A program made the translations under genes and the position numbers. From the NCBI GenBank assembly GCA_913055825.1, contig CAJXKB010000012.1, positions 1 through 51,929 on the forward strand: a DNA stretch of 51,929 nucleotides, in the 5' to 3' direction. This DNA comes from an uncultured Bacteroidota bacterium (GTDB lineage: Bacteria; Bacteroidota; Bacteroidia; Bacteroidales; F082). The notes beneath the pieces are model-generated. The model saw only the letters and a list, made by a program, of their open reading frames with translations. It had not been told where the DNA came from and searched no databases. Position 1 is the stretch's first letter. Every line of letters begins with the position of its first letter. Shown here in pieces: positions 23,885-39,214 of the stretch.

Positions 23885-26800
23885 TTAAAGATATCTTTTG
23901 AATTGTTTTAAGTAAAAATCGATGTTTTCAATATCAAAATCCCGGCAGGCCGTTGCCAAATTCTTTGCAAGTTTTTCCATCGGTTTTATGTGATGTTTTG
24001 CGCTGAAAGCATGTACTTCTTTGCTAAAATCGGCTATTTCATCTATCATCATACTTTGGTACAGCTGTTCCCATCTTAGTCGGAAAGACCGTGTAAATTT
24101 TTGTTGTATTTCAGGATTTATCCGGCTCTGTTGGCGATTTGTTTTTTTGGCAGAATTTTGTTGATCGTTAGTTTTTGGATGGTTATTGTTATGTGTAGAA
24201 TCTTGCCCGGCCGATGCTTTTCCGGTTCTTTTTATGTCGTTAAAATAAATGGTAAAGGTAGAGCCTTTGCCTGTTTTGCTTTCAAGTTCGATGGTCCCGC
24301 CCATGATTTCGATGAGGCGTTTGGCAATATTTAGCCCTAAACCGGAACCCTGGTTTTTCCGGGTGTCTTTGCCGGGCACTTGTTTAAAGGCATCAAAAAT
24401 TCCCTTTTGGGCTTCTTTAGGAATTCCTTTCCCTGTATCTTCAATTTGAATTTTTATATTAAATAATTGCTTCGGTTCATCCATAGACAGCAATTCAATA
24501 GTCAGGTGGACGTGTCCTTTATCTGTAAATTTAATGGCATTTCCCACCAGGTTAAAAAGAATTTGTCTGAAACGGGTACTGTCAAGCAAGAAAAGGCCAT
24601 CAAGCTCAGGTGACAGTTGTGTTGTAAATTCCAAATCTTTTTTCTCGATAAGGGGATAAAAAATTTGATAGATTTCCGTTAAAATATCTGAAAATGAAAC
24701 AGGTTCCCAAATTAGATCCAGTTTGTTGGCCTGAATTTTTGATAAATCAAGAATATCGTTGATGAGTTGCAGCAGGTTATTACTACTGGTGCGGATAGAT
24801 TGTAGAAATGATTCCTGATTATGTGATTTTAATAATGGTTTTAGTAGTTCGGTATAGCCAATAATTGAATTCAAAGGGGTTCGTATTTCGTGACTAATAT
24901 TGGCCAGGAACAAAGTCTTTGCCCGGTTGGCTTCCTCGGCCTGGTCCTTGGCTTTCTGATATTCGATGTTTCGTTTACGTAATTCAGTGTTAATAAGTTT
25001 AAGCCGTTGACTGGTTTTTTCGGCTCGTTCTTCCGCTTCTTTTCTTTTAGTGATGTCTTCAACAATTCCTTCATAATACATCACGTGTCCTGATTGGTCT
25101 TTAATTACCCAGGCACTTTCCATTACATAGATATTACGTCCGTCAGCTGTTGTCCAGATGTCTTCACGTCCCGTGATGATTTCCTGTTCCTCCAGCATGC
25201 GGATAAACTGGTTACGGTGTGGTTTTTCCTGGTTTAAATTAATTTTCTTCAGCTCGGTTTCGGTATAACCTAAAAGCCGGAGAAGGGTTTTGTTTGCAAA
25301 CCGGATGGTTCCGTCACGTGTGGTTTGGTACAGCCCGATGGTAGCATTTTCTACAATACTTCTGTATTGTTCCCTGCTGTTGAACAATTCATTGTTTAAT
25401 TGTTTTAGCTTTATCTGTTGTTTTCTTATTTCGTTGGCTTTGGCTTGAATGAGTGCATTTTTTTTATCCTGGATTTTTTTCCGGAAGTACAAAAACAAAC
25501 TGATGATAATGATGATTACCAAGATAAAAGTAACAAATATAATCAAGAGGATTTTTTGATTTTTTTCCCTGGTTAGTCTGAGCTGATTCATAGTATCCGC
25601 TTTTCTAAGTCGTTCGTTTTCAAGGTCTTTCTGCTCGGCTTCGTATCGTACTTCCATCTCGCTTACCATTTTGCGGTTGGTTTCATTGAAGATTTCCCCA
25701 TTGACTTTTACGTAGAGTTTCAGGTAATCGTAGGCCGTACGATAATAATGCCGGGCTTTGTTAATGTCAGAAAGTAAAAATAAGGTGTTCATTTCAAGAT
25801 CTTTGGCCTGAATGCTTTCGGCATAGGACAGGGCAGTATCTGCATAATGGATTGCTGAAGACAGATGGTTTTGCTGATAATAAATCTGAGCCAAGTCGTA
25901 CATGCTGATAGCCAGCCGACGACGGTCGCCCACCCTTTTTTTAATAGGAAGGGCCAGCTCTTGGTAGTACAAAGCCGAATCGTATTTTCGAAGTTTATAA
26001 TACACCTCGCCTATATTGGAAAGGGCGATGGAATAAAGCTTGTCGTGATGAAGTTTCCTGATCAGGCTTTCGGCTGCTTTAAATTGATGGATAGCCTTAG
26101 CAAAATGTTGTTCAAGTTCTTCAATGTCACCGAGATGAAGTTGGTTGTTTATGGAGTTGAACAGATCTCCTTTTTCGTGGTAAAAATCAAAAGCCGATTT
26201 GTAAAAATAACGTGCGCGCCCTAATTTTCCCCACGATTCCATTATTGTCCCCAGTTGTGTTTGGATAGAAGCGATGCCGTCGCGATCTCCTAATTGGTCA
26301 TAAATATCTTGCGAACGTTGCAACATGCCAATGGCTTTGGCGTAATCGTTATAATTTGACCAAACACGCGCTTCGTCTTTTAATGTTTTGGCTTGTCCGG
26401 GTTTGTCGTCCATTGTTTCATACAGTGCCCTCGATTTTTGAAAATTTTCGGCAGCCAGTTTGTATTTGGTCCATTTGTAATAATTGGTGGCACGTAAAAA
26501 ATAATATTCGGCTATTATTTGCCTGTTACTATCCAAAATAATTGGAGATATTTTTTTGAAAAGAGTGTCTGCCGAAGCATATCGGCAAAGGTCTTGATCG
26601 GCTTGTGCAAGTTTTAGTGAAAGCTGGATAATCAGTTTCCTTTTCTGCATGTGTTTTGCTATTCTTAAAGCCGTTTGATAATATAATATTGCTTTTACAG
26701 GATTTGATTTTTTATTGAGATCGGCAATTTTGGTAATGAGTGTAACTTTTTCTGTTTTGCTGAGGCTCGTATCATTTACCAATGTTTCTATGTCCGAACT

Positions 26801-26941
26801 GTCAGCAATGATCTTGTTGTTATTGCCTTGTCCTTTTAGCATTTGTTGCGGAAGGATGAAGCTCAGCAAAAACAATAGCACAATCACTCTTCGCAAAATG
26901 AAGGGAAAAATTGAATGATATGTCCTGAGATGAATTTTCAT
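23885..26941 (-). CDS. TPR-PAS sensor histidine kinase
   Basis: A protein of about 1018 residues with an N-terminal signal/anchor. Around ten TPR-like repeats fill residues 60-420 in the periplasm. A transmembrane helix at about 465-485 is followed by a PAS/PAC domain (YRSIVENATIGLYQTTRDGT; YYEGIVEDITKRKEAEE). HisKA has phospho-His in FLANISHEIRTPLNSIIGY and HATPase_c has NLVGNAIKFTDKG, DTGKGIPKEAQ and GSGLGLNIAKRL. The last 80 residues are a helical bundle (ADFSKEVHAFSAKHHIKPM, DFDIENIDFYLKQF) like a degenerate Hpt domain. The start is ATG 26941, which shares one base with the upstream stop (TGATG). The ligand is unknown. Confidence 0.88.
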   Translation of the reverse strand: MKIHLRTYHSIFPFILRRVIVLLFLLSFILPQQMLKGQGNNNKIIADSSDIETLVNDTSLSKTEKVTLITKIADLNKKSNPVKAILYYQTALRIAKHMQKRKLIIQLSLKLAQADQDLCRYASADTLFKKISPIILDSNRQIIAEYYFLRATNYYKWTKYKLAAENFQKSRALYETMDDKPGQAKTLKDEARVWSNYNDYAKAIGMLQRSQDIYDQLGDRDGIASIQTQLGTIMESWGKLGRARYFYKSAFDFYHEKGDLFNSINNQLHLGDIEELEQHFAKAIHQFKAAESLIRKLHHDKLYSIALSNIGEVYYKLRKYDSALYYQELALPIKKRVGDRRRLAISMYDLAQIYYQQNHLSSAIHYADTALSYAESIQAKDLEMNTLFLLSDINKARHYYRTAYDYLKLYVKVNGEIFNETNRKMVSEMEVRYEAEQKDLENERLRKADTMNQLRLTREKNQKILLIIFVTFILVIIIIISLFLYFRKKIQDKKNALIQAKANEIRKQQIKLKQLNNELFNSREQYRSIVENATIGLYQTTRDGTIRFANKTLLRLLGYTETELKKINLNQEKPHRNQFIRMLEEQEIITGREDIWTTADGRNIYVMESAWVIKDQSGHVMYYEGIVEDITKRKEAEERAEKTSQRLKLINTELRKRNIEYQKAKDQAEEANRAKTLFLANISHEIRTPLNSIIGYTELLKPLLKSHNQESFLQSIRTSSNNLLQLINDILDLSKIQANKLDLIWEPVSFSDILTEIYQIFYPLIEKKDLEFTTQLSPELDGLFLLDSTRFRQILFNLVGNAIKFTDKGHVHLTIELLSMDEPKQLFNIKIQIEDTGKGIPKEAQKGIFDAFKQVPGKDTRKNQGSGLGLNIAKRLIEIMGGTIELESKTGKGSTFTIYFNDIKRTGKASAGQDSTHNNNHPKTNDQQNSAKKTNRQQSRINPEIQQKFTRSFRLRWEQLYQSMMIDEIADFSKEVHAFSAKHHIKPMEKLAKNLATACRDFDIENIDFYLKQFKRYL

Positions 26942-29787
26942 CAATTTGCTGTAAATGAATGATGATAAGCCCTTTCGAAAAGATTAACCTGCTGATTGAT
27001 GGCGTCAATGTCAAATTTATTAATGTTTTCGATGAGTTGGTTGGAAAAATCCAATAAGATGTTCATCTGATAATCTTTGGCTGCATTTTTGACAGTTTGT
27101 GCAAAGTGCCCGATTTCATTAAATAATCTTGAGTTTTTAGCCTTTAAAAATTCAGAAACGTAAATTTTTTCAAATACGTCTTTTGCGTCTTTTGTGTCTA
27201 ATAATAAATCTCTTTCAAACAAATGTTGTGCAAGGTCTTTCTCAATGCTGGATGTTATAAAAGTATTAATTTTTGAAATTGATTCATCCAACGGGCCTGC
27301 GAGCTTAATCTCAAAAAAATCATGCCTTAATACTGTTTTTTTAATGGCCGGATTGATGATTAATTTGGTTTCTAAACCGGTTAAATATTCATTTTCAATA
27401 GCTTTTAATGTGTTTTTGATAGTGGATTCTTCTAGACAGCACAACACGATTCCCTGACTTTGTTCAATAAGTTTGCGGGTTTTGTTCAGGTTGACACCTA
27501 CATCTATTATATGATAGCCTGCGTCTTTGAATAGATGAACAATTTCTTCCTTAGCGGGATGCGATTGGCTTAAAAACAATATGTTTTTTACTTTGACAAG
27601 TCTGTTTTTAAAGTGCACACGCCGTGGCGTGTCTGACTTTGATTGTACTGAGGATACATGCTCAAAATAAAGGGTAAAAGTGCTCCCGCTTCCCGGCTCG
27701 CTGTTTACTGTAATGCGGCCTCCCATTGCTGATGCCAATCGTTTTGTAATGCTTAGCCCAAGTCCGGTACCTTCATGGTTTTGGCTGGTGTATCCCTGAT
27801 GAAAAGGCTCAAATATTATCTGTTGTTCTTTTTCGGGAATACCTGAACCGGTATCTTTCACCTGAATGGTTAACTTGTTTTTGCCGGGTTGTGTTTCGGC
27901 TTCGGCATTGATGCGAATGGTTACCTCGCCTTCATCCGTAAATTTAATGGCATTTCCAACCAGGTTGAGCAGGATTTGCCGTAAGCGGGTTTCGTCAAAC
28001 AAGATAATTTCAGGCACTGCTTCGTTTATCTCAAAATTTAGTTGAAGTCCTTTATTTACAGCTTTTAGTGTGAAAATATTTTTAACATCGTTAATCAGTT
28101 CATGAAGGCTAATTTCTTTAAATTGAATAACAAATTTACCGGTTTCAATTTTTGATAGATCCAGGATGTCGTTCATCAGATTAAGCAGGCTTTTGCTACC
28201 TGACTGTACGGATGCGAGGTAGGCTTTTTGAGTAGGTTCGGTAATTATACTGGACAATAAATCCGAATAACCGATTACGGCATTCAGCGGGGTTCGTATT
28301 TCGTGACTGATATTGGCCATAAACCGGCTTTTGGCTTTGGCGTTTTCTTCAGCTTTTTCCTTAGCCGCTATCAACTCCTGTGCGTTTTTTTCAAGGGCCA
28401 GTCGGGCTTTTTCAATTTCCTGATTTTTGGCAATTAGTATTTTGTTGACTTTGTTTTTTGATATCAAATAAAAACTGCCGAATGTTAAAACAACCAGTGT
28501 TAATACAAAAGCACTCAGAAAAAAGTACATCAAATATTGCTGTTTTTTACGAATTAATGTGGCAGCAATGGCTTTTTGGTTGGCAAGTTGATTTTTTTGC
28601 CTGAGCATTGCAATTTGATTTTTATCTCGTTCAACTTCGAATTTTAATTGCAAACGGGCAATTTCTTTTTGAATGTTAATATTTAATAAAGAATCATGGT
28701 ATTGCTGTTCTAATTGAAGGTACTCGACGGCTTTTTTATAGTTTCCTAATTGCTTGTAAATATTAAAAAGTGTCCCATAGGCTTCGTAAAGTGATGATTT
28801 GGAATTGATTTTTAGCGAGAGTTTAATTGCTGAATTTAAGTATTTCATTGCTTCTGGGAAATCTTTTAAGCGGGTGTAAAGTTGCCCTGCTTTTACATAG
28901 GAGTAGGCCAGATTGTTGTTGTCGTTATTTTGTTTTGTAAGTTTAATGGCTTTAAATACAGCCGGGAGGGCAAGTTTGTATTGGCCCATTTTCATATATA
29001 CATCAGCAATATCGCTACTGCATATGGCAATTCCACGTTCTGAACCCAGATTTTGATTAATGTTAAGCGAAAGTTTGTAGTAATGCAGGGCCTTTTGTAA
29101 TTCACCCTTTTCCTGATATACATGCCCAATATTGTTCAGGTTAATGGCAACCCCTATCAGATTTTTACGACTGTGTTCCAACTTGAGGCTTCGTTTGAAA
29201 TAATTAAGGCTTTCGTCGGCGTTACCAATTAAAAGTTCAATATTTCCTATGCTGTTAATGGCCATGGCCATTTCGAGTGAATCATGTATCGATTCTGCGA
29301 GCTTCAGGGCTTTAAGATGGTTGTCAAGTGCTTTCAGGTAATTGTCGATTCGCCGGTAGGTTACACCGATATTATTGTAGGTAATGGAAAGCAGACCAGT
29401 GTCGTTTAGTTTCTTGGCAATGTTAAGACTCCTGATGTGGAGGCTTAACGACAAGGCGTAGTTGCTGGCATAACGTTCGCGTACACCTTGTCGATTTAGT
29501 ATTTCTGCAACTTGCAACAGCAGGCCTTTCTGCTGTGCAAGATTGATAGCCTGTTCAAAATATTCACGATTCTTTGGGTTTCCCTGTTTTTGTAATTGTG
29601 CGCCCAAGCGAATCAAACGACTGATTTTTAAGCTGTCGGTCAGGTTTCGAATCGAATCGGAAATTTTGGCTGTATATCCTGTACGGGCTGTGGCATTTTG
29701 CACAAGTGTTCCCATTAAAAATAATATGAAAAGTAGTGTCAATAACAGGTGACGGGATTGCTTATGTTGTTTCTTTAAAAAGGGCAT
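26941..29787 (-). CDS. TPR sensor histidine kinase with degenerate receiver
   Basis: A 948-residue protein with a signal peptide (core at about 13-33). TPR repeats cover about 60-380 (LSITYNNIGVTYRRIDNYLK and similar units), followed by a coiled coil and a transmembrane helix near 420-440. HisKA has FMANISHEIRTPLNAVIGYS and HATPase_c has LVGNAIKFTDEGE and GTGLGLSITKRL. After the kinase, VKNILFLSQSHPAKEEIVHL starts a receiver-like domain lacking the acidic pocket and phospho-Asp. A helical tail (EIGHFAQTVKNAAKDY, KFDIDAINQQVNLFE) resembles that of the next kinase. It is the first gene of the three-kinase unit. Confidence 0.88.
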   Translation of the reverse strand: MPFLKKQHKQSRHLLLTLLFILFLMGTLVQNATARTGYTAKISDSIRNLTDSLKISRLIRLGAQLQKQGNPKNREYFEQAINLAQQKGLLLQVAEILNRQGVRERYASNYALSLSLHIRSLNIAKKLNDTGLLSITYNNIGVTYRRIDNYLKALDNHLKALKLAESIHDSLEMAMAINSIGNIELLIGNADESLNYFKRSLKLEHSRKNLIGVAINLNNIGHVYQEKGELQKALHYYKLSLNINQNLGSERGIAICSSDIADVYMKMGQYKLALPAVFKAIKLTKQNNDNNNLAYSYVKAGQLYTRLKDFPEAMKYLNSAIKLSLKINSKSSLYEAYGTLFNIYKQLGNYKKAVEYLQLEQQYHDSLLNINIQKEIARLQLKFEVERDKNQIAMLRQKNQLANQKAIAATLIRKKQQYLMYFFLSAFVLTLVVLTFGSFYLISKNKVNKILIAKNQEIEKARLALEKNAQELIAAKEKAEENAKAKSRFMANISHEIRTPLNAVIGYSDLLSSIITEPTQKAYLASVQSGSKSLLNLMNDILDLSKIETGKFVIQFKEISLHELINDVKNIFTLKAVNKGLQLNFEINEAVPEIILFDETRLRQILLNLVGNAIKFTDEGEVTIRINAEAETQPGKNKLTIQVKDTGSGIPEKEQQIIFEPFHQGYTSQNHEGTGLGLSITKRLASAMGGRITVNSEPGSGSTFTLYFEHVSSVQSKSDTPRRVHFKNRLVKVKNILFLSQSHPAKEEIVHLFKDAGYHIIDVGVNLNKTRKLIEQSQGIVLCCLEESTIKNTLKAIENEYLTGLETKLIINPAIKKTVLRHDFFEIKLAGPLDESISKINTFITSSIEKDLAQHLFERDLLLDTKDAKDVFEKIYVSEFLKAKNSRLFNEIGHFAQTVKNAAKDYQMNILLDFSNQLIENINKFDIDAINQQVNLFERAYHHSFTAN

Positions 29788-29932: not shown

Positions 29933-32900
29933 TTAAATCCATTTGATCAGGGGGCAATCCATCCGGTGGGCAAGGAGCTTATTTGTTGGAAACAGCCTAA
30001 ATGCATAATCAATGATGCCACTGTGTGTAAGGGGAAAGTCGCACCTAAAACGGACTTTTCCATTTTCGATGTTTTGGCCATGCAAGGGCTGTCGGATGAC
30101 GATTTTCCCGATATCGCCATTGGTTTTGTTGCCCATAATAACTTCGGCACCCAAATCGCAGGCTTCCAGTCCGGGAATGTTCAGAATAATCTCAGCCACA
30201 AAATGTTTACCGTATGGCATAGCTCCATGCGTAGTATCAGGTATCATTAACGATTCAACACTGATATTATTCCAGGCATTTTTGACTTTCTGTTTCCATT
30301 GAGCCAGTATCTTTGTGTTCTGGTATTGCTTTATACTCAGATTATTTGCATTGAAAAAGAGCGGTGTATAGAATTTTTCATAATAATCATTCATCATCCG
30401 TTGCATGGTAAAATGGGGAGCAATACCTGCAATAGTATTTTTTATGTGACTTACCCATGATGTGGAAATTCCCGCGGAATCTCCCTCGAAATAGGTGGGG
30501 ATAATTTTCTCTTCCAGTGTGTTATAAATGAGTTCGGCATCCAGTTCATCCTGAAGTGCCTGGTTTTCATAAGTGCGTGTTTCAGGAATTGCCCATCCTG
30601 CGCCTTTTTTGTAACCTTCGGCCCACCAGCCGTCCAGCACACTAAAATTCAGTACCCCGTTCATAATGGCCTTTTCGCCACTGGTACCCGACGCTTCCAG
30701 TGGCCGTGTAGGCGTATTCAACCACACATCTACGCCGCTGGTAAGTATTTTGCCCATAATCATATCATAATTTTCAAGGAAAATGATCCTCCCGATAAAC
30801 TGTGGCATTTTCGAAAATTCCACGATGTGTTTAATCAGATCTTGTCCGGCTTTATCGTTGGGATGTGCTTTCCCGGCAAATAGGAAAATAACGGGACGCT
30901 CCGGATTATTTACAATGGCGGCTAATCTTTCAGGATTGGCAAATAGCAGATGTGCCCGTTTGTAAGTGGCAAACCGACGGGCGAAACCGAAAATAAGGCT
31001 GTTTTTGTCCAGGTGTTTTATCGATTCTAAGATAAGCTTCGGGTTCTCCTGCCTTCGGGTGAAATCCTGTTGTAAGCGGGTTTTAACAAATTGAACCAGT
31101 TGTTTTTTTACTACTTTGCGGATTTCCCGGATTTTATCGTCCGGAATATCAAATATTTTTTCCCAGCGTGTGGCTTCGTGCTGGTTTTCTTCAAAATTTT
31201 TACCGAACGATTCGCGGTATAATTTTTGCCAGCGCCTGTCGGTCCACGTAAAATAATGTACCCCGTTGGTTACATGCCCGATATGCAATTCTTCGGCGTA
31301 ATATCCGGGATACAGTGGTTTAAACATCTCGCGCGAAACCCGGCCGTGTATCCGGCTTACGCCGTTCACTTCCTGCGAAAGCCGGGTAGCGAGAACACTC
31401 ATCGAGAATTTTTCGGAAGAATTTTTCGGGTTAAACCTGCCCAGCGCCATAAACTCATCCCAATCAATGTGAAAATATTCGCTGAAATGTGAAAGGTAGG
31501 CCCGCATCAGGTGTTCCTCAAAACTATCGTGACCGGCCGGAACTGGTGTATGGGTAGTGAAAAGATTGGTGCCCCTCACATATTGTTTTGCTGTATTAAA
31601 ATCGAGTTGTTGCTCATCCATCAGGTTTTTTATGCGTTCAAGCCCTATAAAAGCAGAATGGCCTTCGTTGCTGTGATAAATGTCCGGATTTAAGCCCAGC
31701 TCGTTCAGTAGTCTTATGCCTCCCAGCCCCAGGAGCATCTCTTGTTTCAAACGGTGTTCGTTATCACCGCCATACAACTGAGCCGTCAGTTTTTTGTCTT
31801 CTTCCGAATTTTCAGGAACATCGGTATCAAGCAGATACAGTGGAACCCGTCCGACATCAAGTTTCCATGCTTTTGCGAGCACAATACGGCCAGGGAAGGC
31901 AATGGCTACTTTTATCCGGTTTCCTTGCTTGTCGCGAACGGGAAGTAATGGTAAACGGGTGGTTTTAAGGATGATATATTCGGCTTGCTGGTCACCAAAA
32001 TGGCTCAATACTTGTTTAAAATACCCGTATCGATAGAGTAAGCCCAAACCTACCATGTTTTTGTTCGAATCGCTGGCTTGCTTTAAATAATCGCCTGCCA
32101 GCATGCCCAAACCGCCTGAAAAGATTTTTATACTGTTGTGCAATCCGTATTCCATACTGAAATAGGCCACCTGTTGTTTTTCTTTTTCTTCGGCATTTTT
32201 CATGTAACTTAAAAACCGATGATAAACTTTGTCCAGTTGCCGGCGAAAACTTTCATCTGCGACAAGCATATTTATCTTTTCCAGTGATAGCGATTCAAGG
32301 ATACGAACCGGATTATGGTCAAGATCGTCCCATTTTTCGGGTAAAATGCTTTCAAATAAGCCGATAGCATCTGTGTTCCACGACCACCACAGATTAAAAG
32401 CCAGTTCTTTAAGGGCGGCTAACGAGTCAGGAAGTACCGGCAGTACAAGGATTTTTTTCCATTGTGGATAAATCTCATTAATTGAGGCGCTTATCTTTTT
32501 GGTTTCAGGCTCTGTCCATTGGATGTTGTGTGTCGTTTTACGCTTTTCGGCGACTTTTAACGCCTGGTTCCAGGCTTTTTTGTAATTGGGTAGCAGCTTC
32601 TTCCAGGTCAGCTGACCGGCTATTTTTTTTGCTTCTTCAGAAGCTGGGCCTTTATCAGGATACTTTATATAACGTTCTATATTTTCGGCTACTTCATTTG
32701 CAATTTTGCTATCGTTCTTTCCCCTGCGGTCAATAACAATTACCGACGGATGTACAGGCTTACAAGTTTTATTTACCCAACTCCCAAAGCCGGCGTACGA
32801 TGTGGTTAGTGTGGGTATGCCATAGGCTATGCTTTCAAGTGGGGTGTAACCCCAGGGTTCGTAATACGATGGAAATACAGAATAATCAAAAGCAGTTAAA

Positions 32901-34138
32901 AAATCGTAATAATTCAGTTGAATGACGCCATCATTCTTGTTGAGATAGGCCGGCACGAAAATTACATGTACACGATCTTCCTTTTTGTTGTGTAAACCGT
33001 TTTCGGATAAGGCCTTTAATATTGGATCGTTTTCGGGATAAAGTAATTTATGTGTCAGATATGGGCTTTCCGGTTTTTTCTCAGCGTCCGTAAAACAATC
33101 CTGAAGCCCATCGTGTCCGGCAGGAACAGCAATAAATGCCAGAATCTGTTTGCCTTGTTTTAGTTGATTTAATTTTCCCAGCGACTGAATAAAAATATCG
33201 ATTCCTTTATTTTTGAACTCATAACGTCCGCTGTTCAAAATCAGAAAAACATCGTCAATATAACTTGCTCCGGTGATTTTTTTGGCTGTTTCGATTGCTT
33301 TTTGGCGGGCAGATATCTTTTTTCTTAAAAATTCCACCTGAGTTGGAACCAGGCTGTTGTCGAAACCGTTGATAGTAAGCAGGTCGGCCTTTTTGCCAAG
33401 AAACTGCTGACATTCAGTTGAAGTAACAGCGCTCACGGTAGTAAACACATCCGCCTCACGCGCGCTGATGGTTTCGAGCGAATTTTTACTCACCACATTA
33501 AATTGTCCTGAAATAGCAATTGGCTGATATTTGGTAAGTTGTTCGTATAGTGGGAGGCCGTTGCCAGCTACCGAACGGCCTAATACTGTGGCGTGGGTAG
33601 TAAATGCCGTACCCACCGCAGGGAGTTTTTCTTTTAGATATAAAATGCCTGTTCCGGTCATCCACTCATGAAAATGAGCCACAACTTTATCAGTGGGAGT
33701 CAGGTAAAAATTAAAATAACTTTCAACTACCTGCCCGGCAGCATAACCAAAAAGTGCAGGTTCAATGTAATCCCATTGTCCCGACAGTGAATCAAGCTTG
33801 TATTTTTCCCAAAAATGGGTGAAAATAAAATCTTTTTTGGTAAATAGTTGGGTGAAATCGACTAAAATTACGATGGGTTTTGATTGGATATTCCAGTGGC
33901 CAACACGAATTTTGATGCCTTGCAACAAAGCGGCTTCACGCCATTCGTTCAAAATACCGGAATCTTCAATAAAATCGGGATTTGCCCTGGTTTCTTTCCA
34001 CACATCGGGGCCGATTAGCATATAATTATTGCCATAAGCCACAGCCATTTCCGAAACTTTGGAAGAAACAACGGTATAAATTCCGCCTATTTTATTACAG
34101 ATTTCCCAACTGGTCTCAAATATATAATCTGGTTTCAT
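29933..34138 (-). CDS. Glycogen synthase (GT3)-alpha-glucan phosphorylase (GT35) fusion
   Basis: A single 1401-residue polypeptide. The N-terminal 530 residues are a GT3, animal/fungal-type glycogen synthase: FETSWEICNKIGGIYTVVSS, NSGRYEFKNKGIDIFIQSLG, and the E-x7-E motif in YEPWGYTPLESIAYGIPT. From about 560 an alpha-glucan phosphorylase of the short bacterial type follows: DUF3417-like LKELAFNLWWSWNTDAIGLF, KIFSGGLGMLAGDYLKQASD, and the PLP-Lys motif EASGTSGEKAIMNGVLNFSV. The C-terminal 100 residues are beta-rich. It thus carries both elongation and phosphorolysis of alpha-1,4-glucan. This arrangement occurs in Bacteroidota. It has its own -7 box and is the last gene of the glycogen cluster. 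Confidence 0.92.
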   Translation of the reverse strand: MKPDYIFETSWEICNKIGGIYTVVSSKVSEMAVAYGNNYMLIGPDVWKETRANPDFIEDSGILNEWREAALLQGIKIRVGHWNIQSKPIVILVDFTQLFTKKDFIFTHFWEKYKLDSLSGQWDYIEPALFGYAAGQVVESYFNFYLTPTDKVVAHFHEWMTGTGILYLKEKLPAVGTAFTTHATVLGRSVAGNGLPLYEQLTKYQPIAISGQFNVVSKNSLETISAREADVFTTVSAVTSTECQQFLGKKADLLTINGFDNSLVPTQVEFLRKKISARQKAIETAKKITGASYIDDVFLILNSGRYEFKNKGIDIFIQSLGKLNQLKQGKQILAFIAVPAGHDGLQDCFTDAEKKPESPYLTHKLLYPENDPILKALSENGLHNKKEDRVHVIFVPAYLNKNDGVIQLNYYDFLTAFDYSVFPSYYEPWGYTPLESIAYGIPTLTTSYAGFGSWVNKTCKPVHPSVIVIDRRGKNDSKIANEVAENIERYIKYPDKGPASEEAKKIAGQLTWKKLLPNYKKAWNQALKVAEKRKTTHNIQWTEPETKKISASINEIYPQWKKILVLPVLPDSLAALKELAFNLWWSWNTDAIGLFESILPEKWDDLDHNPVRILESLSLEKINMLVADESFRRQLDKVYHRFLSYMKNAEEKEKQQVAYFSMEYGLHNSIKIFSGGLGMLAGDYLKQASDSNKNMVGLGLLYRYGYFKQVLSHFGDQQAEYIILKTTRLPLLPVRDKQGNRIKVAIAFPGRIVLAKAWKLDVGRVPLYLLDTDVPENSEEDKKLTAQLYGGDNEHRLKQEMLLGLGGIRLLNELGLNPDIYHSNEGHSAFIGLERIKNLMDEQQLDFNTAKQYVRGTNLFTTHTPVPAGHDSFEEHLMRAYLSHFSEYFHIDWDEFMALGRFNPKNSSEKFSMSVLATRLSQEVNGVSRIHGRVSREMFKPLYPGYYAEELHIGHVTNGVHYFTWTDRRWQKLYRESFGKNFEENQHEATRWEKIFDIPDDKIREIRKVVKKQLVQFVKTRLQQDFTRRQENPKLILESIKHLDKNSLIFGFARRFATYKRAHLLFANPERLAAIVNNPERPVIFLFAGKAHPNDKAGQDLIKHIVEFSKMPQFIGRIIFLENYDMIMGKILTSGVDVWLNTPTRPLEASGTSGEKAIMNGVLNFSVLDGWWAEGYKKGAGWAIPETRTYENQALQDELDAELIYNTLEEKIIPTYFEGDSAGISTSWVSHIKNTIAGIAPHFTMQRMMNDYYEKFYTPLFFNANNLSIKQYQNTKILAQWKQKVKNAWNNISVESLMIPDTTHGAMPYGKHFVAEIILNIPGLEACDLGAEVIMGNKTNGDIGKIVIRQPLHGQNIENGKVRFRCDFPLTHSGIIDYAFRLFPTNKLLAHRMDCPLIKWI

Positions 34139-34326: not shown

Positions 34327-35907
34327 TTATTTCTTTTTGAAAAGCTTTTGCAGCTTCGATTCCACTTCCCGACGGTATTTATTAATGTCGGATTTGGATA
34401 CCTTTTTCATTTCGGTTTGTAAATCTTCATACTGTTTTTTAGCCCTTTTCCCCAGATTGGGGAGAATCTTCCCGGTAATTTCAGATTCTGCATCTTTCAA
34501 GGCTATGCCCAGGGTTTCAACATCAACCTCATGGATGAGTTTCTTAACGGCCGCGTTTGACAGATTTTTAATATCGTCAAATTTGATGTCTTTACTTTTA
34601 TCTACTGTTTTTTTAACCGATGCTGAAGCTTGTTTGGCTTTTCGTTTGGCCAGTTGGCCGGTTTTTTCAGCGAGTTTTACCGCAGTCTCCTTTATTTGGC
34701 CGGCAATGTCTTTTCCGTAAGTTGTGTTTTTTTCAACTCTGATGATAAAATCGGAGAGCACATTCATGTAATTGATAAAGGCTTCATAAGGCGTTCCGTA
34801 AGGGTTAAAATACTTATGCACATCTCCGTCCGAAAACCATTTTGTACACATGTAATAAAAATGATCGGAAGTTTGGAGGTACAGCCAGTCGTGATGTATT
34901 TGCGGGTCATCGCATTGTCGCACCTTTTCTTCCAGGGCGTACAATTTGTCGAATGCTTCATCCTGCAATTCATTTCCTAACCATGCCGTGAGGTCACGTT
35001 CTTCATCGGCCCACGAAATGGGGTAGGGCACATGGATAGGTGCCACTGCTTGCAAAGTTTGTCCCAACTCCAGGGGTGTGTTAAAAGTAAAATCGGAATG
35101 GGAAAATACCCTTGCAGGCAAGGCTTTCATAAAGTCAAATATACCGGTTTCTGCCCATTGGTGTTCGCCAAATGTTTCATAATCCATAAACAAATTAATT
35201 ACCTCTTCTTTGGGATTAATTTGGTTGAGCCAGCCCACAAATTTTTCGGTAGTCAGGGGCCACTCTTTCCAGCTTTGTTGCGAAAAACGAAAAGCAATAT
35301 CATCACTTAACTGGAAATTTTTTAGTAAAAGTTTCAGCTTTGGGTTGATGGCATTGGTGTATAGATAATTGGGGCTACGCCATCCCATCACATGTTTGGC
35401 CCCTTCGGTGAGCATCACATCATAACCTAAATCGGCAACCAAGGCTCCTATTTCATCCGAATAAATTAACTCGGTATTTCGAAAAGTTGAAGGCCTTTGA
35501 CCGAAAAGTGACTCTATTTTTGCTGCTTGCTCTTTTACCTGGCTGGTGAATTCCTGTTTACTTTTTAATGCGGAAAGAGAGTGAGAATAGGTTTCTGCAA
35601 GAAATTCAACCTGCCCGGTTTCGGCCAGGCGTTTAAAACTTTCGAGTACATCGGGTGCATAAGCTTCAAACTGGTCAAGTGCGGTGCCTGATATGGAAAA
35701 ACTAACTTTAAAGGCACTTCCGTACTCATGAATCAAATCCAGCAAAAGGGAATTCATGGGCAGGTAATTTTTTTGAGCTACTTTGCGCATAATTTGCGCA
35801 TTGTTCAAATCGTCGAAATAGTCGTGCTTTTCACCAATGTCGAAAAAGCGATAACTTCTGAGCCGCATGGGCTGATGTACTTGGAAATAGAAACAGATAG
35901 ATCTCAT
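34327..35907 (-). CDS. GH57 alpha-glucan enzyme with C-terminal FliG-like domain
   Basis: The 526-residue protein starts with a GH57 catalytic domain (about 1-395). It has His11 in VHQPMRL, the nucleophile Glu146 in FRNTELIYSDEIG, and the acid Asp242 in FMDYETFGEHQ. GH57 members are alpha-amylases, amylopullulanases or 4-alpha-glucanotransferases. A Lys/Ala-rich linker (about 395-437) leads to residues 438-526. These read like a FliG C-terminal domain: IHEVDVETLGIALKDA, KILPNLGKRA and then a SKSDINKYRREVESK helix. I am not aware of a settled function for such a tail. The gene follows the GT4 gene by 21 bases within the glycogen cluster. Confidence 0.88.
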   Translation of the reverse strand: MRSICFYFQVHQPMRLRSYRFFDIGEKHDYFDDLNNAQIMRKVAQKNYLPMNSLLLDLIHEYGSAFKVSFSISGTALDQFEAYAPDVLESFKRLAETGQVEFLAETYSHSLSALKSKQEFTSQVKEQAAKIESLFGQRPSTFRNTELIYSDEIGALVADLGYDVMLTEGAKHVMGWRSPNYLYTNAINPKLKLLLKNFQLSDDIAFRFSQQSWKEWPLTTEKFVGWLNQINPKEEVINLFMDYETFGEHQWAETGIFDFMKALPARVFSHSDFTFNTPLELGQTLQAVAPIHVPYPISWADEERDLTAWLGNELQDEAFDKLYALEEKVRQCDDPQIHHDWLYLQTSDHFYYMCTKWFSDGDVHKYFNPYGTPYEAFINYMNVLSDFIIRVEKNTTYGKDIAGQIKETAVKLAEKTGQLAKRKAKQASASVKKTVDKSKDIKFDDIKNLSNAAVKKLIHEVDVETLGIALKDAESEITGKILPNLGKRAKKQYEDLQTEMKKVSKSDINKYRREVESKLQKLFKKK

Positions 35908-35928: not shown

Positions 35929-37215
35929 TTAACGAATCAGTAAATTCTGGTAAACATTAATAATTTTTTTAGCGGCATCTTCCCATTTTAAGTTCTCTAC
36001 CTCTTGTTTGCCGTATTTTCGGAACATTTTTGAAAGCCCTTCGTAATGACAAAGGCCATAAATTGAATCGGCCATTGCATCAATATCCCAAAAATCAATT
36101 TTTAAAGCATGGTGTAAAATTTCAGCTACACCGCTTTGTTTTGAAATGATAACCGGGACATTGGAGCGCATGGCTTCCAGCGGAACTATACCGAAAGGTT
36201 CGGAAACCGACGGCATGACAAACACATCACTCATGGCAAAAATATGATCCACATCATTACCCTCCAGGAAACCCGTAAAATGAAATTTATCGGCAATTTT
36301 TAAACGGGCTACATGTTTAATCATTTTTACGAGCATATCGCCTGATCCGGCCATTGCAAAACGAACTTTTGGGTCTTTCTTCAAGACTTTATTGGCTGCT
36401 TCAATAAAATATTCGGGGCCTTTCTGAAAAGTGATCCTTCCGAGGAAAGTAACCAGTTTTTCGTCGTAATTTTTTTTGATATGTTGTGCTTTTTTACGAT
36501 AGTTTTGGTCAACGGCATTGTGAATGGTAATCACCTTAGCAGGATCTATACCGTATTTTTCAATCACAAGGTTTCGCGTAAGGTCGCTCACCGTAATTAC
36601 GCTATCGGCCACTTCCATGCCCTGACGTTCAATTTCATAAACCTGTTGGTTTACATTGCCCCCCGTGCGATCAAACTCGGTGGCATGCATGTGTACAACC
36701 AGCTTTTTCCCGGAGGATTGTTTGGCCGCAATACCGGCCGGATAGGTAAGCCAGTCGTGGGCGTGTATTACATCGTAGTCTTCTTTTAAGGATAGTGCCG
36801 AAGCAATTAAGGCATACCGGGCAACTTCTTCCATCAGGTTGCTGGTGTATTTTCCCGAAAATTTATAATATTTCGAGAATACATTGCTTTTGAATTCCAC
36901 TCCTGTTTTGACGTTTTTCTCCATGTTCCTCGAAAATTCTTCAGGACTTACATAAGGAATGATGTTGGAGCCTACTTCGAGATATTTAATTTTGCTCCAG
37001 TATTCCTTGTATTCTTCATCTTTCAGGTCGAATGGAACTTCACTGGCACTTTTAATTTGAGCCGCTTTAGTATCCTCATCACCATAGGCTTTGGGAACTA
37101 CGAAAATGACTTCTGTTCCCTGTTTTACAAGCCCTTTTGTGATGCCATAGCAGGCCGTGCCAAGCCCTCCGGTAATATGAGGTGGAAATTCCCATCCAAA
37201 CATCAATACTCTCAT
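35929..37215 (-). CDS. GT4-family glycosyltransferase, glycogen synthase-like
   Basis: A 428-residue GT-B enzyme. The N-terminal donor/acceptor loop is WEFPPHITGGLGTACYGITK, then VIHAHDWLTYPAGI. The C-terminal nucleotide-sugar half has FLGRITFQKGPEYFIEAA and the E-x7-E motif SEPFGIVPLEAMRSN. Its place between a debranching enzyme and GH57 mirrors the order known in Bacteroides glycogen loci. It likely adds glucose from ADP- or UDP-glucose to a glucan or makes a primer; the donor is not decided. Confidence 0.87.
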   Translation of the reverse strand: MRVLMFGWEFPPHITGGLGTACYGITKGLVKQGTEVIFVVPKAYGDEDTKAAQIKSASEVPFDLKDEEYKEYWSKIKYLEVGSNIIPYVSPEEFSRNMEKNVKTGVEFKSNVFSKYYKFSGKYTSNLMEEVARYALIASALSLKEDYDVIHAHDWLTYPAGIAAKQSSGKKLVVHMHATEFDRTGGNVNQQVYEIERQGMEVADSVITVSDLTRNLVIEKYGIDPAKVITIHNAVDQNYRKKAQHIKKNYDEKLVTFLGRITFQKGPEYFIEAANKVLKKDPKVRFAMAGSGDMLVKMIKHVARLKIADKFHFTGFLEGNDVDHIFAMSDVFVMPSVSEPFGIVPLEAMRSNVPVIISKQSGVAEILHHALKIDFWDIDAMADSIYGLCHYEGLSKMFRKYGKQEVENLKWEDAAKKIINVYQNLLIR

Positions 37216-37246: not shown

Positions 37247-39214
37247 TTACAGATCGTTGCTCTGAAGGCTTTTATGCTTATTGTTTAATAGCCAGTTTAT
37301 TCGTAATAGTTCGGCAACACTCCATGCTTGTGATATGGCCCCACCTGCTTCGTAAGGCGGATCGCCATTGTACACTTCCGAAATGGTTCCTACACCCGCT
37401 TCAGTCATTACTGTTTCAAAACCCTTATAAATAGAACGGATAAATTCTTTTCCACGTTCACCGTGGATATTCAGCCAGGCATCGGTAAACGGACCCAGTA
37501 ACCAGGGCCACACTGTCCCCTGATGGTAAGCCAAATCGCGCTCAGTTTGATTACCTTTGTATATGCCTTTATATTGAGGTGCGCTGGGCGATAAGGAACG
37601 TAACCCCCTTGGTGTGAGTAAATCTTTTTTGGCTATGGCCAGCACCCCAAATTTCATCTCGGTATTTAAAGGTGAGAAAGGCATAGCTGCTGCAATAACC
37701 ATGTTTGGCCTTATGCTGAAATCATGATACTCATATGTTGCAAAGTCTGCCAGATATCCTTTTTCAGCGTTCCAAAAAATTTCCTTGAAGGATTTTTCAA
37801 TGCGCCCGGGCCATTTCTGCCATTTTTTGACGAAAGCCTCATCACCTGATTCATGGGCAAGTTCCAGACTAAAGCAAATGGCTTCGTACCAAAGTGCATT
37901 AATTTCAACATCAAAACCTATGCGGGGGGTAACCGGTTTGCCATACACAACGGCATCCATCCAGCTTACAGCTTTTCCTGTTTCGCCTGACCAGATTAGT
38001 CCGTTTTCGTGCATTTTTATCTGATGCAGCGTTCCGGTTTTATAATGATTAAGGATACTTTTCATGGATTTACCGTAGTGATCCCATAGTTTGTCTTTTT
38101 CTCCGGACATTAACCGGAATTGATGAAGCGCCCAGAAAAACCACAGGGAAGTGTCGGCTGAATTATAGCTTGCCATTTTCCCGTGGCCTAAGTTGGGAAA
38201 AAGGCCGTTCCTGAGTTCTGTCAGCATTGTTTTAATCACTTCGTGAAAGCTTTTGGTATCACCTCTTGTTAGTGTTAAGCCGGGAAGTGCAATAAAAGTG
38301 TCACGGCCCCAACGTCCAAACCATGGATAGCCGGCTATGATTTCCGTTCGTTTTTTATTATGAATAATAAATTCTTCGGCAGCATTAATTAAGCAATGCT
38401 CAAAACTATCACGTTTGATGCGTTTTTTCACTTCTGCAGTAAATTGCCTTTTGAATACGGAAGGGCTTTTTCCCTCCAGCCCCGCAGAAATGACCAGGCT
38501 CTCACCGGGTTTTAAAGTGGTTTCAAAATATCCGGGGGTAAACAAATCTTCGAGATAATCATAACCTCTTTCCTGTTCCCTGATGTATTTTACATTATAA
38601 TACCAATCGGGCACATGGATATAATTGGCTTTTTTAGAAAATTGCATATAAACCCGTGAATAGCCCTTATACATTTGCCAGCTGGCACCGTTTTGCACCG
38701 CTTTGAATTGTGAATTTACATAGGTATTGGCTTTGCTGAGGCTGTGTACGCTCCTGTAGGCCAGAAAAGGACGAAAACGCAATTGCACCTTCTCCGGACT
38801 TTTCCTGAGTGTGTATTTAATAAGAATTCGGTCTTCTTTTTGTGCTAAAATTAATTCTTTTACCAATTCGACACTTCCCATTCGGAAAACCAGGTGCGGG
38901 TTTAGGTCTGTATTGTAATTTCTCAAATATTTGTGGCCTTTTGGTTCCATGACGCCACCTTTATACATGCGTGAGCCCAAATGAAATTCAAAATTATTAG
39001 CTGTAAGGGTTTCGTCCAGGTCAGCCAGTAAAACATGGTTGTCATCATTGATCAAGGGCTGCGGAACTACCAATAAACCATGGTAGCTTCGGGTGTTGCA
39101 ATTGATAATGCTCGAGCTGGCATAGCTTCCTGCACGATTTGTCCGCAACTTTTCCCTGTTTAAAGAGTAAGAAAGATTGATTAGTTTTGTTTTGTCTAAC
39201 TTTATGAAGCCCAT
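37247..39214 (-). CDS. Glycogen debranching enzyme (amylo-alpha-1,6-glucosidase, GH133)
   Basis: A 655-residue enzyme. The N-terminal bacterial/archaeal GDE domain includes GSYASSSIINCNTRSYHGLL and MGSVELVKELILAQKEDRIL. The C-terminal (alpha/alpha)6 barrel includes IAGYPWFGRWGRDTFIALPG, a substrate-binding, acidic-residue-bearing motif of the family, and LAYHQGTVWPWLLGPFTDAW. It removes alpha-1,6-linked glucose from branch stubs. It is the first gene of the leftward glycogen cluster, with a -7 box at 39261-39268. Confidence 0.92.
   Translation of the reverse strand: MGFIKLDKTKLINLSYSLNREKLRTNRAGSYASSSIINCNTRSYHGLLVVPQPLINDDNHVLLADLDETLTANNFEFHLGSRMYKGGVMEPKGHKYLRNYNTDLNPHLVFRMGSVELVKELILAQKEDRILIKYTLRKSPEKVQLRFRPFLAYRSVHSLSKANTYVNSQFKAVQNGASWQMYKGYSRVYMQFSKKANYIHVPDWYYNVKYIREQERGYDYLEDLFTPGYFETTLKPGESLVISAGLEGKSPSVFKRQFTAEVKKRIKRDSFEHCLINAAEEFIIHNKKRTEIIAGYPWFGRWGRDTFIALPGLTLTRGDTKSFHEVIKTMLTELRNGLFPNLGHGKMASYNSADTSLWFFWALHQFRLMSGEKDKLWDHYGKSMKSILNHYKTGTLHQIKMHENGLIWSGETGKAVSWMDAVVYGKPVTPRIGFDVEINALWYEAICFSLELAHESGDEAFVKKWQKWPGRIEKSFKEIFWNAEKGYLADFATYEYHDFSIRPNMVIAAAMPFSPLNTEMKFGVLAIAKKDLLTPRGLRSLSPSAPQYKGIYKGNQTERDLAYHQGTVWPWLLGPFTDAWLNIHGERGKEFIRSIYKGFETVMTEAGVGTISEVYNGDPPYEAGGAISQAWSVAELLRINWLLNNKHKSLQSNDL

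Follow-up and report, generated by a model that had tools for sequence, protein, structure and literature searches.

The GH57 alpha-amylase-type protein encoded in the window (the whole stretch of 51,929 nucleotides analysed here) ends in a domain that is, as good as certainly, a true homologue of FliG_CC (residues 442-523; Table 1). The protein carries a FliG_CC domain but is not a FliG, and this is a known domain in an architecture of which no published description was found in searches confined to open-licence PMC papers. The best explanation, to which we give about an even chance, is that FliG_CC was captured once by the GH57 enzyme and that the tail docks the enzyme to a partner by way of a basic linker. 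That a rotor piece was captured once and that its stator face now attaches the enzyme to an assembly bound to glycogen, in hosts that are flagella-less, leaving a motor part in charge of carbon storage, is put forward more tentatively, at somewhat below an even chance.

Table 1. Features of the GH57 gene and its neighbours (positions are those of the window)
Feature	Position	Strand	Remarks
GH57 alpha-amylase-type protein with FliG_CC-like tail	34327..35907	-	ORF, 526 aa
GH57 catalytic part, residues 1-390 including helices past the Pfam match, net -19	34738..35907	-	
Lys/Ala-rich linker, residues 391-441, net +7, model confidence mostly low	34585..34737	-	
FliG_CC-like domain, residues 442-523, six helices (predicted)	34339..34584	-	
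Glu146, predicted catalytic nucleophile, CSR-3 RNTEL	35470..35472	-	codon checked
Asp242, predicted proton donor, CSR-4 FMDYETFGEHQ	35182..35184	-	codon checked
Lys455 of tail	34543..34545	-	residue counts, 69 tails vs 30 FliGs
Leu496 of tail, site of FliG Asp289	34420..34422	-	alignment and residue counts
Arg488 of tail, site of FliG Arg281	34444..34446	-	alignment and residue counts
GT4-like glycosyltransferase, conserved neighbour	35929..37215	-	
Glycogen debranching enzyme (GDE_N + GDE_C), conserved neighbour	37247..39214	-	
Fused glycogen synthase (Glycogen_syn) + DUF3417/phosphorylase, frequent neighbour	29933..34138	-	

When residues 430-526 were compared with Pfam FliG_C (PF01706), the match scored 56.3 bits (E 4.4e-15; cut-off 23.3) and spanned profile positions 19-100 of 108; the entire GH57 protein scored 54 bits against the same cut-off. 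The first-pass annotation had called homology to the FliG C-terminus and placed it at residues 438-526 (34330-34596). The position was correct, and the call is confirmed by the FliG_C match, by solved FliG structures and by a predicted fold that is FliG-like. The motifs it had listed, LIHEVDVETLGIALKDA, KILPNLGKRA and SKSDINKYRREV, are all found, but the middle helix, KRAKKQYEDLQTE, is charge-mixed and not acidic. TIGR00207 (NCBIfam fliG) matched the tail with an E value of 2.3e-10, and its 35.3 bits are far under the equivalog cut-off of 226.7. Neither FliG_N nor FliG_M was found in the GH57 protein at E<=1 (Pfam). Against the PDB, the tail sequence alone returned solved FliG chains at 8.4e-8 and weaker, and a profile of 65 tails returned Aquifex FliG at 7.1e-20. 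For the single tail as for the 65-tail profile, the top 11 chains were without exception FliG, one of them as a FliF-FliG fusion, and designed armadillo proteins and annexins stand lower in the list of the profile. MgtE_N (Pfam) scored 14.6 bits on the window tail, under its cut-off of 25.9, and was found at E<=1e-3 in 14/64 members (best 3.1e-5). FliG_C matches were more numerous and stronger, reaching that threshold in 63/64 tailed members, which had been preselected as tailed with the tails' own profile.

The set behind these comparisons consisted of 120 GH57 frames. Four without an HQP start were left out and 84 tailed frames were thinned by similarity to 70, of which 64 are in alignment A1, 65 in alignment A2 and 69 in the residue counts (the fragment L161 was omitted). 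Using a control profile built solely from 30 FliG frames (L031-L060), 6,892 of the 6,900 shuffles made were scored; the tail of the window reached 38.0 bits compared with 14.4 for the best shuffle. The best shuffle was exceeded by 65/70 real tails, among which the window is included a second time under the handle L001, and the five tails below it (L095, L125, L129, L120 and L139) are divergent. Identity to the window tail goes down to 17% in divergent members.

An HMM-HMM comparison aligned the tails with FliG over 82 columns without a gap (probability 98.7%), though 82 columns are few for tracing the tail to a particular FliG lineage. The alignment runs at an offset of +207 to Salmonella FliG and makes window F443 the equivalent of FliG F236, the second Phe of MFLF, so that the tail begins at the second Phe of MFxF as FliG_CC does. 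The further equivalents are K471 = K264, R488 = R281, D495 = D288, L496 = D289 and S504 = R297, and the window thus keeps those of Lys264 and Arg281. As the match starts at F236, only FliG_CC is present, without FliG_N, FliG_M and FliG_CN. The portion of PMC6445934 covered assigns ring formation to FliG_N, FliG_M and FliG_CN and stator contact (Arg281, Asp289) to FliG_CC.

AlphaFold2 predicted six helices from the 65 tails (pLDDT 90, pTM 0.77), which is the six-helix FliG_CC fold. When this model was used to query the PDB with Foldseek, ranks 1-16 were all FliG chains (TM 0.78-0.89, 80-85 columns, rmsd 1.0-1.7 A), the TM values for 1qc7, 3hjl and 8ucs being 0.82-0.87, and ranks 17-20 (E 0.6 to 2.1) were other fragments of FliG, taken from FliG-FliM and FliF-FliG structures. 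Both profile and predicted fold therefore match FliG, the two points on which the first-pass annotation had made its call refutable, and together with the shuffle control they rule out a chance resemblance.

Unlike FliG, the tail is fused behind a GH57 enzyme, and it occurs in a genome (96.9% complete) in which it is the sole FliG_C match and in which neither FliG_M (at E<=0.1) nor an FlhA-type export gate (FHIPEP) was found. The remark in the first-pass annotation that no flagellar gene is visible thus holds genome-wide for the three markers tested, FliG_M, FHIPEP/FlhA and a second FliG_C. A flagellar remnant was rejected as an explanation, since the three markers are absent save for this domain and the domain is on GH57 in all the order loci fetched. 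In a sample of the window's family, FliG_C was found in 53/60 genomes (55 matches), and all 30 loci fetched of those 55 are GH57 frames. Of the seven family genomes without FliG_C, two gave no GH57 match and the other five have tail-less frames of this enzyme, 380-429 aa long. The tail profile detected 57 matches in 56/295 genomes of the order, the window's own included, under 33 family codes. The stronger 30 of these matches were fetched and the weaker 27 left out; in 30/30 (own included, 21 family codes) the domain is on GH57. One genome, G036, has two tailed GH57 genes (L162 and L168), which may be paralogues or the product of a mixed assembly. Across the class, the tail profile matched 1/295 genomes, the window's own, and GH57 was present in 11/60, again including it.

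In the phylum sample, FliG_C was found in 104/395 genomes, in frames mainly of 340-410 aa (plain FliG) or approximately 590-700 aa (another architecture). Among the part of these rows that was fetched, no second GH57-FliG_C fusion frame was demonstrated. The 600-700 aa FliG_C frames of other Bacteroidota were considered as the same fusion and rejected because their architecture is different. They (L141-L160, approximately 590-700 aa) are membrane proteins that likewise carry FliG_C outside plain FliG in the same phylum; however, in the 5 of 20 that were scanned FliG_M is also present and there is no GH57. By eye, an N-terminal export signal can be made out in them, then a membrane segment and, in the scanned five, FliG_M and FliG_C; examples are L141:684-2534 (+), L144:694-2535 (-) and L152:475-2571 (+). 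There are one or two such proteins per genome, and the genomes G202 and G097 that have them are without a FliG match of approximately 350 aa. L152 matches the FliF C-terminal profile marginally below the cut-off (22.3 vs 23.8). These proteins resemble rotor components in which FliG is joined to a membrane part.

The catalytic part was used to build a tree of 137 rows, 97 tailed and 40 without the tail, with other orders of the class serving as the root; it omits L183, L190, L213, L088 (broken frame) and three more frames without the HQP start. Parsimony requires at least 10 changes of the tail on this tree, and its history is probably one gain and about nine losses; parsimony alone leaves room for regain alongside losses. 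The gain branch has a support of 93 (quick method). FliG_CC therefore appears to have been captured once, by the GH57 enzyme of an ancestor within the order. Some losses are recent, as tail-less L098 lies beside tailed L171. L207, from another order, is placed inside a tail-less clade of 16. With about nine lineages lacking it, the tail would be helpful but not essential.

Of 23 close pairs listed for dN/dS, 14 duplicate others from near-identical loci. In 8 of the 9 distinct pairs, which share members and in some of which dS is near saturation, tail dN/dS was 0.019-0.108; the ninth was not computable. The catalytic part gave lower values (0.017-0.045) and the linker mostly higher ones (0.058-0.215). 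The tail is thus a part of the protein that is maintained by purifying selection. The order-wide spread, the single gain and this selection favour the idea, raised in the first-pass annotation, of an old recruited module. That the tail is a selectively neutral fusion leftover is very improbable: it has been lost repeatedly and its identity is as low as 17% in divergent members, but a dN/dS of 0.02-0.11 and its persistence across the order (a checked locus under 21 family codes, a match under 33) stand against neutrality.

Torque generation is the known role of FliG_CC, and Lys264, Asp288 and Arg297 of FliG contribute to it as well. We compared the corresponding residues of 69 tails (L001 being the window) with those of 30 FliGs of the phylum. 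The Asp289 site is acidic in 0/69 tails and 30/30 FliGs, and in 67/69 tails it is hydrophobic or Ala (Leu496 in the window). Basic residues are found in the tails at the sites of Arg281 (49/69, K or R; Arg488 in the window), Lys264 (46/69) and Arg297 (38/69), each of which is basic in 30/30 FliGs. The Arg281 and Asp289 pair is intact in none of the tails and in all 30 FliGs. Gly294-Pro295 is mostly substituted, often by Lys (33/69 and 42/69). Conversely, residue 455 is basic in 67/69 tails and in 0/30 FliGs, which have Gln there (30/30). Resting on the gapless alignment, these changes strongly suggest that the stator contact has been lost in the tails.

A Leu of FliG is lost at residue 497 and one is gained at 496, so the helix may be turned by approximately one residue. 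Acids are found at residue 494 in 51/69 tails and at 495 in 38/69, and with the helix turned E494 and D495 could lie near the old acidic pair. A contact between the tail and a MotA-like stator relative of the cell envelope (ExbB/TolQ type) could draw on these acids at 494, on the mostly basic equivalents of Arg281 and Lys264, and on the MotA_ExbB matches of the genome, three in number, of which one is weak and contains a stop. However, the residue that positions the stator is Asp289 (PMC4030992, portion covered), whose equivalent is never acidic, and the genome has no FliG_M for ring assembly. We regard such a contact as highly unlikely. Under the docking explanation, the stator face would have been remodelled, the Asp289 equivalent becoming Leu or Ile, Gly-Pro often Lys-Lys, and Gln Lys455, and the partner would therefore not be a flagellar stator.

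A Lys/Ala-rich linker between the two domains had been noted in the first-pass annotation and is plain in the composition (K 24%, A 14%). Its low confidence in the full-length model (pLDDT 80, pTM 0.70) would suit a flexible tether; residues 401-431 are, however, drawn as a low-confidence helix, so that flexibility is inferred. Mean net charge is +4.9 for the 69 tails, +3.8 for the linkers and -13 for the catalytic part. Among tail-less relatives (32 in all), 15 of the 21 measured have a C-terminal stretch with a net charge of +7 or more (+7 to +40). Lys-rich ends of net +7 or more are also found in 12/16 rows of the tail-less sister clade and in 3 of 9 measured outgroup proteins. Perhaps the GH57 protein already ended in a Lys-rich stretch before the FliG part was added, but 6/9 outgroup proteins are without such an end, so either the linker or the tail may have come first. 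Many tail-less GH57 relatives, including L107-L109, L115, L116, L118, L121-L124 and others, have long Lys/Thr/Ala-rich low-complexity ends (net up to +40).

The same charges could mean that tail and linker attach directly to a surface, anionic or of glucan (phosphorylated glucan, membrane, polyphosphate or nucleic acid), without a specific protein partner. The basic tails and linkers beside an acidic catalytic part, the fixed lysines and the basic ends kept in tail-less relatives are consistent with this, as is a weak resemblance of some linkers to phasin, YtxH or apolipoprotein helices, with phasin at 7.4e-5 in 1/64 whole proteins. However, charge varies from 0 to +11 in the tails and from -4 to +28 in the linkers. 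The linker matches are below cut-off (YtxH 17.8 bits vs 37.5 for the window; phasin at best 18.9 bits vs 28.8, in L097) and typical of Lys-rich helices, and in the known case FliG_CC contacts a protein, the stator (PMC4030992 and PMC6445934, portions covered). We consider surface binding unlikely, and phasin-like granule binding by the linker was rejected on these weak, sub-cut-off matches.

Purifying selection requires merely a structural role, and a basic tail beside an acidic catalytic part could belong to an intramolecular or dimerisation domain that stabilizes the enzyme. However, pLDDT in the full-length model is <50 at residues 400-409 and 411-438, that is, at every residue of 400-438 but one, and closely related proteins can differ in having the tail (L098 has lost it, whereas L171 next to it has not). 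This role is thus quite doubtful. In the docking explanation, FliG_CC would have been gained once at the end of the enzyme, the basic linker would act as a flexible tether that lets the compact six-helix tail reach its partner, and the docked tail would keep the enzyme at a glycogen particle or within an assembly of enzymes. The scaffold first proposed from the sequence, which would join the enzyme to glycogen or to its neighbours in the cluster, is a plausible idea.

Pfam PF03065 (Glyco_hydro_57) covers residues 6-288 of the enzyme (E 2.8e-73). E146 is invariant in alignment A1 and D242 at least 90% conserved. No solved structure was matched by sequence at E<=1e-3 (PDB), and in the Foldseek search of the full-length model the closest to the GH57 part were the 4-alpha-glucanotransferase 1k1x, GH57 branching enzymes and amylases, the structures matched including 1k1x, 3p0b and 2b5d (E 1e-13 and weaker, TM near 0.5). 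In GH57 alpha-amylases, according to the portion of PMC6037648 covered, CSR-3 starts with Arg/Glu and CSR-5 ends in Tyr-Tyr. In the window protein, with the regions placed by eye, R143 opens CSR-3 and Y351-Y352 end CSR-5 (LQTSDHFYY). With PF03065, the catalytic Glu and Asp and these marks shared with the GH57 alpha-amylase group (CAZy), the enzyme is probably of the alpha-amylase type, acting on alpha-glucan; it differs from that group in the extra linker and FliG_CC tail.

The debranching enzyme (GDE) and GT4 genes lie upstream on the same strand in every locus whose flank is long enough, whether or not it has the tail. GDE is present in 47/47 tailed and 24/24 tail-less loci, GT4 in 51/51 and 24/24, and the synthase-phosphorylase is next in 34/45 and 17/23, respectively, counting only loci with enough flank. 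Of 80 similar loci, a set chosen by similarity to the tailed query, 25 are tail-less. A link between the tail and the neighbouring genes was rejected, as tailed and tail-less loci show no difference; with the GDE-GT4-GH57 cluster unchanged whether or not the enzyme is tailed, its neighbours give no pointer to the partner, and no partner was found. The survey of homologues that the first-pass annotation proposed found the tail widespread in the order but its presence unlinked to the glycogen neighbours. The same three genes (GDE of GH133, GT4, GH57) adjoin in the archaeon P. torridus (PMC11046441, portion covered); here, by contrast, the tail is added and the fused synthase-phosphorylase is often next. 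FliG is unmentioned in the portion of that review covered. In the window, the glycogen genes are followed immediately downstream, on their own strand, by two adjacent TPR-bearing histidine kinases (1019 and 948 aa; 23885-29787, minus strand).

The covered portion of PMC11046441 also asks if GH57 amylases could be missing branching enzymes. A GlgB-like branching enzyme (TIGR01515, E<=1e-50) was found in 0/5 genomes of the window's own genus. TIGR01515 matches at that threshold occur in 48/55 other genomes of the family, all 48 under the model's own cut-off, and at E<=1e-5 GH13 is matched 10 times in the window's genome. GH57 might do the branching in this genus.

The FliG_CC fold has thus long been under selection in bacteria without a flagellar FliG, on one glycogen enzyme in the order loci fetched. 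A single gain followed by about nine losses, next to a gene cluster that is otherwise unchanged, would amount to a natural experiment. If docking is true, the tail would illustrate how a motor contact acquires a new target and would provide a handle on the organization of the glycogen enzymes of Bacteroidota.
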